A DNA stretch of 25,154 bases. It comes from a virus. Positions 2,878-24,562 of the stretch are shown here, one piece after another. Position numbers and translations under genes: made by a program. Below the pieces are notes generated by a model, which had not been told where the DNA came from, did not search any database, and saw nothing but the letters and a program-made list of their open reading frames with translations. The first letter of the stretch is position 1. Every line of letters begins with the position of its first letter. The DNA is taken from positions 1 through 25,154 of IMG/VR virus record IMGVR_UViG_3300009706_000057. One strand, written 5' to 3'.

Positions 2878-3744
2878 ATGGCCGAAGCAGCAGTCGAACA
2901 GGCAGCCCCGGAGGCGGGGTCTGTTCCCTCTGAAGCGACGCCGGAAGCGGCGAATGACTGGCGCGATGCTATCGGCGAGGACATCAGACACGACCCCTCG
3001 CTGCAATCGATCAGGGATGTAGGCAATCTTGCCAAGTCCTATGTGCATGCTCAGCGTATGGTCGGGCGCGACAAGATCGCCTTACCTGGCGAAAGCGGCA
3101 CGCCGGAAGAATGGTCTGACTTCGACGCGCGAAGCGGTAGGCCAACCGAGGCCGCAAACTATGATTTAACCGCGAATATTCCGGCAGGCATGGAGAGCGA
3201 GAATGACTCCGGCGTGCTGGCGGGGTTCAAGGACGCCGCGCTGGCCGCAGGCCTGCGGAACAATCAGGCGCAGGCAGTGCTTGACTATTACTACAGTATG
3301 TCCGGCAGCATGGGCGAAGAGCGAAATCAGATGCTCGAGCAGGGGCGCGCCGACACAGAGACTGAATTGCGGCGAGAATATGGCAAGGCCTACGACGAGC
3401 GTATTGGCTTCGCGAAGGACGCGCTGGCTCAATTTGGCAGCGACGATCTCGCCGAGATGGAGCTTGCCGACGGCAGTAAGGTTGGCAACAACCCTCACTT
3501 CGCAAAAATGCTAGCAAATGTCGGGCTCTTTATCCGCGAGAAGATCGGCGAGGACAGCCTGGAGGGCGACAAACGATTGCAGAATATGATGACGCCGCAG
3601 GACGCACATGATCAGCGCCTCGATCTGATGCGGCCCGGCGGTCCCTATTGGGATAAGAACCACCCACAACACAAAGATTTCGTTCAGCGAGCCCTCGAGC
3701 TGGCCGAGCATGAATTTCCCGAGGAGGTTACGCAAATCGGGTGA
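2878..3744 (+). CDS. Capsid scaffolding protein (T7 gp9-like)
   Basis: A 288-residue, acidic, Ala/Glu-rich protein between portal-side genes and the major capsid gene, the invariant place of the podovirus scaffold, which directs procapsid assembly and is then released. The N-terminal ~30 residues are low-complexity (Ala, Glu, Pro). A recognisable block follows: DVGNLAKSYVHAQRMVGRDKIALPG, then PTEAANYDL, which is widely shared among phage scaffold proteins. The C-terminal third is helical and charged, expected for coat contact. AGGAGAATTAACT gives a strong ribosome site. A 138-nt leader separates it from the capsid gene. Confidence 0.85.
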   Translation: MAEAAVEQAAPEAGSVPSEATPEAANDWRDAIGEDIRHDPSLQSIRDVGNLAKSYVHAQRMVGRDKIALPGESGTPEEWSDFDARSGRPTEAANYDLTANIPAGMESENDSGVLAGFKDAALAAGLRNNQAQAVLDYYYSMSGSMGEERNQMLEQGRADTETELRREYGKAYDERIGFAKDALAQFGSDDLAEMELADGSKVGNNPHFAKMLANVGLFIREKIGEDSLEGDKRLQNMMTPQDAHDQRLDLMRPGGPYWDKNHPQHKDFVQRALELAEHEFPEEVTQIG

Positions 3745-3882: not shown

Positions 3883-4933
3883 ATGTCTAACCAAATTACC
3901 ACAGCGTTCGTAAATCAGTTCTCGAGCAACGTCACTTTGTTGGCGCAGCAGACAGGCTCGATGTTACGCAACGCAGTTAACGTGGAATCGGTTACAGGCG
4001 AAAAGGCCTTTTTCGAACAGATCGGTAAGGCGTCCGCAGTGCAGAGGGTATCTCGGCACTCCGACACGCCACTTGTTGAGACTCCCCACAGCCGCCGGAT
4101 GGTTACAATGACCTCCTACGAGTGGGCCGATTTGGTTGATGATGCTGACAAAATCCGCTTATTGATCGATCCCGCGAGTACCTACGCCCGCGCAGCAGCG
4201 GCGGCCATTTCACGCAGCATGGATACAGCTATTATCGATGCTATGACTGGCTCCGCGAATACGGGAGCGGCAGGCTCTACTAGCACTGCATTACCGGCCG
4301 GGCAGAAAATCGTCCACGGCAGCGCAGGGCTGACATTAGCTAAGCTCGTTTCAGCAAAAAAGATACTTGACCAGAACGATATCGACCCAAGTATCCCACG
4401 CTATATCGTGGTTAGCCCCGAGCAGACTGAAGACCTGCTCAACAATTCGACTGTCACTTCAGCCGATTACAACAGTATCAAAGCACTTGTACGCGGTGGA
4501 TATTCGCCTAGCAGGCGTGAAAGCGTTTGCTGAAAACTGCTCAAATTCGGGGAAGGCTGTAAAATGCTAATCCCGAGCGAAGCCCTAATTTGGGAACGTG
4601 TAGAGACTTGACGGGCAGCACCCTTTGGGGTGATGAGAAAGTCCAGACCACAAACGGCTTATGCCGGCAGCGAAAGCTGTAGCTGGTAAGGAAATTGATA
4701 CTTTCCTCGGCTTTAAGTTTATTACGTCAAACCGCCTCAACTCCGACGGGACTTCGCGTCAAGTCGTTGCCTGGGCGCAAGACGGGATGGCTCTCGCGAT
4801 AGGAGCCGAGCCTAGCGCTCGGATCACGGAGCGGGATGACAAGTCGTATTCGACTCAAATCTACTATTCGGCGACCTTTGGGGCCACTAGGCTTCAAGAA
4901 GAGATGGTCGTCGAAATAGCGTGTAACGAATAG
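3883..4933 (+). CDS. Major capsid protein, split by a group I intron (exons 3883-4497 and 4691-4933)
   Basis: Exon 1 encodes 205 residues (MSNQITTAFVNQFSSNV...ADYNSIKALVRG) and exon 2 encodes 80 (EIDTFLGFKFITSNRL...EIACNE), together a 285-residue coat protein of the podovirus/P22-related phage capsid type. The two halves are complementary: the N-terminal part carries the FF-x-QIGKA and RMVTMTSYEWADLVDDADK-like blocks, and exon 2 supplies the IDTFLGFKFI block and the C-terminal domain. Joining at GGT/GAA keeps the frame and restores the expected VRG-EIDTFLGFKF stretch. Unspliced message stops at TGA 4531-4533, giving a 216-residue truncation. ATG 4661 inside the intron could mimic a separate 90-residue gene but has no ribosome site. 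TTGGAGGA precedes the real start. Confidence 0.88.
4498..4690 (+). ncRNA. Group I self-splicing intron, IC3-like, ORF-less, in the capsid gene
   Basis: A 193-nt insert with the conserved core in order. P3: CTGCTC 4537-4542 with GGGCAG 4613-4618. P4: TCGGG 4547-4551 with CCCGA 4572-4576. P6/P6a: 4577-4599, with CCC/GGG. P7: GACTT 4605-4609 with AAGTC 4639-4643. P8: CACCC 4619-4623 with GGGTG 4628-4632. P2 (4511-4517 with 4524-4530) and a GAAA-capped P9 (4664-4686) are also visible. The strings TCAAATTCGG and GTGTAGAGACT closely resemble the Azoarcus/cyanobacterial tRNA introns. The guide sequence TTCGCC (4503-4508) pairs with exon 1 GGT, giving the required U-G pair at the splice site, and with exon 2 GAA (P10); the intron ends in G. 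No homing endonuclease is present. Confidence 0.92.
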
Positions 4934-22493: not shown

Positions 22494-23690
22494 ATGCCAG
22501 ATTTTACCCGAAAATTTTCGATACCACATTGGGATAACTATTCCGATGACGATATTTTCTATCGCTTGTTTAAAAACTCAGCCAAAGAATACAAGGACGA
22601 AATTCGCGACATATTTTTTGGCGGGGAATTTCATTATGAGTATAAGGGTGAGCAAAAGAAGTATGGCGATGTAATGGGAGTCAGCCCCTCTCCCATTCAG
22701 TTAGATAACCTATTCAAAATCCAAGATGAGTTTGGCACAGAAATTTCACTCACCCTAAATACCCTGGATATGGGCAAGGAATTGGCATCTGACGCGAACG
22801 TCATAAATCAGATGCTAGAATTTATACGGGGATATTATGAGCGGGGTCTTAGGGTTTGCACAATTAGCTCGACTCATCTGATGAGGACTGGGGCTTTACA
22901 GGAAGCATTCCCAGATATGAACTGGAAAAACACAGTCAACCATCTGGTGAAATCTACCCAAGAGGTCTATGACTACGCAGCCTTGGGATACACGACAATA
23001 TTATTGGATCGCTCTCTGAATCGAGACATCGATTTATTGAAAGAAATCCGCCAAGAGACGAAAAAGCTAAAGATTGAAACATCACTGTTAGCATCTGAGT
23101 CCTGTATGCCGAGCTGCCCCTTCAAACAGGAGCATGATCTTTGGCAAGCACCATTGCAGCAATCAGAATCAAATTATTGGCAGACTTTTCCGACGACCTG
23201 TGTGCGCTGGCGCACCCCATATACAGAACAGTTGCCCCGGCTTGGCATTAATATCTCGATGGCAACCAAAGAAATTGTTGATGAATTTTCTGAAAATGTA
23301 GATGTGTTTAAATTCAGCGGCAGGCTGGGGCAGTCGCAGGGGATCGATCCCGATGGCCGAATGTGCTGGTCCGGCATCGAAAAGGGAAACAGAAAAATCG
23401 ACCTGGAAAGTGGCAAATTACTTGACGCTTTTGAGTATGCAGATTCATTTCAAGAGATATATGAGAAAAGTCTTTCACCATATTTAGTGGATCGATGGGC
23501 ACCGCAAGGCTGGACAAATTTAGCACAGACCCAGCAACACAGCGCCGAAGATATTTCATCGATCTGGAACACCAAGAAGGGCCAAGGTCTGAGCAAGATT
23601 TTGTCTAAGTGTAAAAACAGGTGTTGGGACTGTCACGCTTGCGAAAAAGTATTCGGCGTCGAGGCGTTCAATTCGACGTTGGAGCTGTAA
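22494..23690 (+). CDS. U32-peptidase-like TIM-barrel iron-sulfur protein
   Basis: A 398-residue protein, not a standard virion component. Barrel-like strands carry YAALGYTTILLDRSLNRDIDLLKEI (about 161-185), reminiscent of the U32 family, followed by the signature-like LLASESCMPSCPFKQEHDLW with C204, C208 and H214-D215. The C-terminus ends with C373-x3-C377-x2-C380-x2-C383, an iron-sulfur-type cluster; C122, C236 and C291 add possible ligands. Known U32 proteins hydroxylate tRNA, rRNA or quinones rather than acting as simple proteases. The gene is AT-richer than its neighbours, suggesting acquisition. Substrate is unknown; family call is from motif recall. Confidence 0.6.
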   Translation: MPDFTRKFSIPHWDNYSDDDIFYRLFKNSAKEYKDEIRDIFFGGEFHYEYKGEQKKYGDVMGVSPSPIQLDNLFKIQDEFGTEISLTLNTLDMGKELASDANVINQMLEFIRGYYERGLRVCTISSTHLMRTGALQEAFPDMNWKNTVNHLVKSTQEVYDYAALGYTTILLDRSLNRDIDLLKEIRQETKKLKIETSLLASESCMPSCPFKQEHDLWQAPLQQSESNYWQTFPTTCVRWRTPYTEQLPRLGINISMATKEIVDEFSENVDVFKFSGRLGQSQGIDPDGRMCWSGIEKGNRKIDLESGKLLDAFEYADSFQEIYEKSLSPYLVDRWAPQGWTNLAQTQQHSAEDISSIWNTKKGQGLSKILSKCKNRCWDCHACEKVFGVEAFNSTLEL

Positions 23691-23713
23691 ATTATTTATG
23701 TAGGGGAACCCTT

Positions 23714-24562
23714 ATGAAAAACTTTCTAATCAGGGCGGCATTGGCCGCCTTTTTTATTGTCGCGTCAGCGGGCGCAGCAGTCGCGGACCAGTCTGCCAAA
23801 GTGCGGCACGAACAGATGATTTACCCTGTGGTGCTGGTTCAGTCTGGGCATGGCTCGGGCTCCGGCACGGTCATCTTCTCCGAGCGGCATGACGGCGAGG
23901 TTCACACGTATATCCTGACCAACCATCACGTCGTCGCTAACTCGATAAAGGTCTCGAAGCTCTGGTGCAGCGGGCCGCCAAAGTGTAACGAGCCTGGAAA
24001 AATCGATATCGAGAGGCGCGAGACGGTCCAGGCCATCTGGTTTGAGTACAACGATCTCAGCAGGAACATCGGCACGCGCGGTCAGAAGGCAGACATCGTG
24101 GCCTATAGCCCCCTCCGCGATCTGGCTCTTTTAAGAACCCGAAACAAAGAGACCGAAGTCCAGTACGTCGCGGCGATCATGCCGGAAGATGCGCCCACTT
24201 ATCTGGGCGATCGCATTCAATGCGTCGGTGCCGGCCTCGGCAACCCGCCCTTCCTTACCTCGGGTGAAGTGGGCTTCCTCGACGCCGAGATCAAAGGCGA
24301 GGATAGCCGTTACGCGCTGATTTCCTGCCCGATAATTTTTGGCAACAGCGGCGGGGCCGCCTTCCGCTGGAGCGACGCGCGGCAGCAGTACGAGCTGCAA
24401 TCGATACCGTCAAAGGTATCGGCGACCTGGGCGACCGGCCCGGTCACGCATATGGCCTGGGGGATCACGATGGAAACCGCAAGAAAATTCTTCAGAGAGC
24501 ATGAGCTTGGTTGGGTCATTGGTGACCCTAAGATTATCAAAACAGATGAAGGAGAAAACTAA
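23714..24562 (+). CDS. Secreted trypsin-like serine protease
   Basis: A 282-residue protein with an N-terminal signal peptide (MKNFLIRAALAAFFIVASAG, likely cut near A24-D25), so it acts in the periplasm or outside. The triad of a chymotrypsin/HtrA-like fold is visible: H72 in TNHHVV, D136 in RDLALL and S212 in GNSGGAAF. No PDZ domain follows, unlike HtrA. Two cysteine pairs (C85/C91 and C170/C205) may form disulfides. ATG 23714 yields the complete signal peptide; upstream in-frame codons do not. It starts the lysis block and overlaps the holin-like gene start by one base. Confidence 0.88.
   Translation: MKNFLIRAALAAFFIVASAGAAVADQSAKVRHEQMIYPVVLVQSGHGSGSGTVIFSERHDGEVHTYILTNHHVVANSIKVSKLWCSGPPKCNEPGKIDIERRETVQAIWFEYNDLSRNIGTRGQKADIVAYSPLRDLALLRTRNKETEVQYVAAIMPEDAPTYLGDRIQCVGAGLGNPPFLTSGEVGFLDAEIKGEDSRYALISCPIIFGNSGGAAFRWSDARQQYELQSIPSKVSATWATGPVTHMAWGITMETARKFFREHELGWVIGDPKIIKTDEGEN
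23734..23755 (+). terminator. Rho-independent terminator inside the protease signal-peptide codons
   Basis: A 6-bp GC stem, GGCGGC (23734-23739) with GCCGCC (23744-23749), loop ATTG, is followed directly by six T residues. It lies 20 bases into the protease coding sequence, downstream of the fibre/U32 block. Its shape is as good as the terminator at 15336. Translation of the signal peptide through it could keep it unfolded, so termination may depend on initiation at ATG 23714. Confidence 0.65.

Follow-up and report, generated by a model that had tools for sequence, protein, structure and literature searches.

The locus analyzed here raises the question of how an intron without a mobility enzyme of its own came to interrupt a phage capsid gene, and how it could spread. 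The whole stretch of DNA analyzed, referred to as the window, comprises 25,154 bases of a virus record with 55.6% G+C, in which profile matches pointed to a podovirus-like phage with genes for portal, scaffold-like, capsid and tail proteins. A first-pass annotation had read its major capsid gene as two exons separated by a 193-nt group I intron of the type known from bacterial tRNA genes, had noted that no homing endonuclease is encoded therein, and had left the mobility of the intron unexplained.

Comparison with homologues and with the profiles PF19821 and phrog_3437 showed the annotated exon coordinates to be exact. Exon 1 (3883–4497, plus strand) comprises codons 1–205, ends in CGCGGU and matches positions 1–207 of PF19821 and 3–210 of phrog_3437, and exon 2 (4691–4933, plus strand) starts with GAAATT, comprises codons 206–285 plus the stop codon and matches positions 208–293 of PF19821. 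Joined in frame, as had been proposed, they form a single open frame of 285 codons for a PF19821/phrog_3437 protein, and phrog_3437 is covered end to end (about 1–210 by exon 1, 210–293 by exon 2). The unspliced frame starting at 3883 runs into a stop codon at 4531–4533, and the frame for the same protein resumes downstream. The capsid gene was uninterrupted in 143 full-length IMG/VR copies, and intron-free relatives continue through the junction, e.g., with GTA CAA GGT/GAA GTA GAT. In the nearest isolates, which are HTVC010P-like pelagiphages, the capsid gene is in one piece, with about 58% identity. In IMG/VR, the window's own junction was not found in intron-free or spliced form. By this comparison, the 5′ splice site lies directly after U4497 and the terminal omega-G (4690, plus strand) is the final intron base at the 3′ splice site. 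The similarity of KAVAGK, which is encoded ahead of the 3′ splice site, to KALVRG was considered as a sign of an alternative 3′ splice site or a duplication; this reading was rejected because the homologues fix the junction at GGT/GAA and the 3′ ends of the introns at other sites explain these bases.

The intron (4498–4690, plus strand) is 193 nt long and lacks an ORF. The suggested Infernal search against Rfam returned the model Intron_gpI (RF00028) at 4489–4661 over its full length, with 53.2 bits (E 4e-11), which passes the cut-off of 50 bits only narrowly. The structure was assessed across 29 introns located in capsid genes, T7-type capsid genes and the tRNA genes of bacteria and phages. 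A P1–P9 fold drawn on the window, as proposed in the first-pass annotation, held up in this alignment, with 90.7% of the cells paired, 41 of 57 pairs changed on both sides, and a covariation score of 0.502, as compared to 0.168 for shuffles and 0.055–0.104 with slid partners.

All helices lie on the plus strand. P1 (4495–4508) is formed by GGU^GG with UCGCC (4504–4508) and places the pair U4497–G4506 at the splice site; this pair of exon U and guide G was present in 26 of 28 rows. The guide 5′-UUCGCC (4503–4508) is part of P1 and, with GAA of exon 2, of P10, as indicated by guide–target covariation. P2 (4510–4531) has 9 bp, all of which covary, and a GAAA loop. P3, whose 5′ strand (4537–4542) has its partner at 4613–4618, showed double changes in five of six pairs. 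The 5′ strand of P7 (4605–4609), the helix of the G-binding site, pairs with 4639–4643 in a pseudoknot with P3; P3, P6 and P7 were paired in all 29 sequences (100%). P4 (4547–4552/4571–4576) with P5 (4555–4557/4566–4568) occupies 4547–4576 and was 96.9% paired, while P6 (4577–4579/4597–4599) with P6a (4583–4585/4592–4594) occupies 4577–4599 and was 100% paired, the third P6 pair being G-C in the window and C-G in most other introns. P8 (4619–4632) was 97.7% paired. P9 (4647–4650/4684–4687) together with the hairpins P9a and P9b extends over 4647–4687; P9b was 98.2% paired, and the outer P9 pair and P9a, which are poorly aligned across groups (47–70% paired), are based on the window's own complementarity. 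Thermodynamic folding by itself was moderate (z −2.84, with 2 of 200 shuffles equally good), and minimum-energy folding was rejected as proof in its own right. With the Rfam match, the covariation and the uninterrupted homologues, the segment is very likely a compact group I intron of the IC3-like type known from bacterial tRNA genes, capable of self-splicing, as judged from sequence comparison.

The assignment to the tRNA-type rather than the T4-type introns was borne out in substance by R1, a covariance model built for the window's intron family. The window intron, one of the sequences that make up R1, scored 207.9 bits. Most held-out bacterial tRNA introns scored about 94–184 bits (15 of 63 matches reached only 43–73), IA-like phage introns about 33–60 bits and the T4 nrdD intron 20 bits; the cyanobacterial tRNA-Leu introns in the 29-row alignment were from species other than the reference Anabaena. 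Hairpins of the P7.1/P7.2 type between P7 and P3 mark IA introns. In the window, three bases connect P7 to the 3′ strand of P3, and the connection is short and free of such hairpins in all 29 rows. The tRNA-type reading is thus supported; the formal label rests on IC3 being the class name used in the literature for these bacterial tRNA introns. The core pattern GAGCSAAGCC..GTGYAGAGACT, derived from the intron, occurred no fewer than 119 times in the genomes of bacteria and archaea, and among the matches listed, 102 were inside tRNA genes according to ARAGORN, mostly Leu(UAA) and Arg(CCU). Viral contigs contained at least 120 matches; among those listed, 32 were in predicted tRNA genes, four of which were doubtful in type. 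This pattern was rejected as a marker of tRNA-type introns since it also catches IA-like introns (25 phrog_1357 contigs), and subgrouping was done with the full model R1 instead. In L139, L124, L162 and about 22 other contigs, the downstream exon of another major head protein, phrog_1357, starts right after the IA-like intron.

Bacterial tRNA introns (cyanobacterial tRNA-Leu; proteobacterial tRNA-Leu, tRNA-Arg and tRNA-Ile) have the same core strings and helices and are similar in size and 3′ end, and the joint 29-row alignment had a mean column identity of 57%. The best bacterial matches, over 182 aligned bases, were the introns of Bartonella tRNA-Arg(CCU) and Hoeflea tRNA-Leu(UAA), with 83% and 82% identity, respectively. 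In contrast to these, the window intron lies in a phage protein gene and has its own guide (GCC for GGU) and target. Bacterial tRNA introns are hereby linked to phage capsid genes. Group I introns of the tRNA type were also seen in phage tRNA genes (L088, L102, L113, L191 and others); according to a 2014 review, all phage introns known then were in protein genes.

The structure and the exact junction were derived by comparison, and the splicing chemistry is that inferred from the family. Accordingly phrased, GGU of exon 1 would pair with GCC of the guide in the transcript (P1), and a guanosine bound in P7 would attack after U4497. The freed exon would then attack after G4690, with GAA of exon 2 held by UUC (P10), and the normal message for the capsid protein of 285 aa would result.

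The capsid gene of HTVC010P-like phages was found to carry introns at 15 or more insertion sites, with up to four introns per gene. They are small and ORF-less and belong to two structural classes, both of which were confirmed by Rfam. When the capsid protein was mapped on the fetched loci, introns of the window's family were placed after residues 46.7, 48, 52.7, 198.7 and 205; residue 205 is the window's site and is common to four other contigs, the intron being identical. The second, IA-like class has an extra hairpin region between P7 and P3 and occupies about ten further positions (42, 50, 60, 63, 65, 71, ~84, 152, 201, 257 and ~272). Scanning viral contigs with a guide-sequence pattern in which no more than four exon bases are specified yielded 88 matches, all 88 of them at PF19821 capsid genes. 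Two or more introns were present in 23 locus entries, which outnumber the contigs since some contigs were fetched twice. In 12 larger records, Rfam detected 15 introns in all, and those matched by coordinates, a subset that was checked, lie in the capsid gene. The capsid gene was interrupted in 12 of the 80 nearest cases, a sample biased by similarity to the window. At locus L346 (2845–4451, minus strand), a single capsid gene contains four group I introns, which fall into two classes. A search of open-access papers turned up no account of such a pattern. Taken alone, the intron adds a further example to a known kind; the new part is its setting, with many ORF-less invasions in which guide and target change together.

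This joint change is evident in P10. The guide bases GCC for exon GGU are kept at all five sites of the window's family, and at each of them the triplet before GCC pairs with the opening triplet of the 3′ exon: at 48, ACU with AGU; at 46.7, CCU with AGG; at 52.7, UUU with AAA as well as UUC with GAA; and in L029, CUU with AAG. Over 23 distinct guide/target combinations, P10 pairing was complete, at 69 of 69 positions, including 66 Watson–Crick pairs, while 10,000 shuffles gave a mean of 43.9 and a best value of 58, and none reached 69. The five sites share essentially only the six guide-paired bases (core identity 0.50–0.91), and the flanks outside the paired core have an identity of 0.14–0.31 between different sites, which is about chance. 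Bhattacharya et al. based their case for reverse splicing in fungal rDNA on the same pattern (PMC1299323). Forward splicing likewise depends on a guide/target match, so that a match is expected after a move of any kind, and the match alone does not prove the route. Five targets for a single intron family are available in this small phage gene, and guide and target change together.

Spread at the same site is of a different appearance. The intron of L004 is identical to that of the window at 193 of 193 positions, and the exons are 82.5% alike. Within 16 codons of the site, exon identity amounts to 93.9%, as compared to 75.2% (s.d. 5.3) in that region for intron-free pairs of equal overall distance, 0.4% of which reach 93.9%. 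The identical intron and the raised exon identity near the site point to a short tract having recently been transferred by recombination. Same-site spread probably represents homologous recombination, which would probably take place between coinfecting phages. Presence/absence variation and lateral transfer, by which mobile introns are recognized, were both found. As had been noted, the 193-nt intron encodes no homing endonuclease, its longest stop-free stretch being 53 aa. The first-pass statement that the mobility is unexplained can be refined, since sequence evidence was gained for guide-directed changes of site and for lateral transfer with flanks.

Could the element be inert, or be moved by an enzyme encoded elsewhere? 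It is highly improbable that the segment is a dead, non-splicing remnant or an assembly artefact. The Rfam score near the cut-off is in keeping with this notion, but the same intron is identical in four other contigs, core and covariation are intact, the guide/target match is kept at all sites, and the unspliced frame of this essential gene stops 12 codons into the intron. Rather unlikely is also a homing endonuclease acting in trans, free-standing and encoded by the phage or a coinfecting phage, which would act together with double-strand-break repair and reach new sites by relaxed cutting. Endonucleases acting in trans are known in T4-like phages (PMC3984707), an HNH_3 domain was matched in 1 of the 12 virus records, and the identical introns, with a flank identity that is raised and then falls with distance, look like co-conversion. 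These records, several of which may be incomplete, gave no match to GIY-YIG, HNH (PF01844) or LAGLIDADG, however, and the sites have only the guide-paired bases in common, whereas homing is said to need 15–20 nt of flanking identity (PMC1299323). The pattern of ectopic spread thus fits reverse splicing and is a poor fit to endonuclease homing, as far as can be read from the sequences.

The remaining alternative assumes inheritance and ordinary homologous recombination only, each site going back to an old insertion of its own from a bacterial or phage tRNA intron, and is rather unlikely. AU tests on alignments of about 200 columns did not reject one origin per site (p 0.20–0.24), so that strict proof of several origins per site was not reached, and the identity of up to 83% between bacterial tRNA introns and the window intron would suit such insertions. 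However, the capsid introns from the five sites cluster apart from the tRNA introns (94/82; tRNA group 89/96), with the phage tRNA-Asn intron L191 falling among the capsid introns, and the window intron groups with introns from other sites (FastTree 97; IQ-TREE 98/95 and 86/79), the nearest one differing between trees. Due to this grouping, changes of site within the gene are the simpler reading, and with one family at several sites moves are needed in any case. Reverse splicing as the route between sites is close to an even bet on the present sequences. New positions would probably be reached by reverse splicing into the abundant capsid RNA via guide pairing, with a DNA copy being made afterwards. 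The 12 records, several of them possibly incomplete, gave no match to a reverse transcriptase (RVT_1), so that the copying step would need a host enzyme or another route. In its full form, the account reads that endonuclease-less introns of the tRNA type spread by guide-directed reverse splicing in the capsid genes of HTVC010P-like and T7-like phages, favoured by abundant late capsid mRNA, which would explain two classes and at least 15 sites in one gene of 285 codons; we put it forward tentatively, at slightly less than an even chance. The case for reverse splicing as a way in which group I introns move in nature has long been built on circumstantial data from rDNA. The capsid gene provides a natural test case for spread without a helper enzyme, and isolated relatives of these phages can be grown.

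Among known systems, the HTVC010P-like capsid introns at 46.7–52.7 and 198.7 belong to the same family (R1 about 147–225 bits, no ORF) but occupy other sites. Pelagibacter phage HTVC120P and Chosvirus KM23C739 likewise have family members without an ORF (R1 about 147–225 bits), in their case in T7-type capsid genes, and these introns, unlike that of the window, use a CGU target. Mycobacteriophage LittleE and lactococcal phage Tuc2009 also have a (probable) group I intron in the capsid gene. The LittleE intron was shown by RT-PCR to be spliced, and its type was called unclear, most likely group I (PMC3706429); unlike the window intron, it carries an endonuclease frame, and a single site was described. 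Phage introns of the IA type, as in T4 nrdD and the Bastillevirinae, are group I ribozymes in phage genes as well, the former with an R1 score of only 20 bits. Of 45 introns in the Bastillevirinae, 32 contain an endonuclease, and most are similar to the IA type (PMC11878797).

In phage records of this kind, a capsid gene can be split and wrongly annotated. The genes of HTVC120P (L082, 2293–3467; MH598807) and KM23C739 (L083, 2127–3400; KT997847) are split by introns of the family and annotated as two capsid CDSs, and no intron is marked in either annotation. In L083, an apparent second intron was seen at 3159–3344 (99.8 bits). Elsewhere in the window, a protein of 398 aa with matches to phrog_1458 and phrog_36869 is encoded at 22494–23690, downstream of the tail-fibre-like region, and a trypsin-like peptidase domain (PF13365), unusual among phage structural genes, is encoded at 23621–24562.
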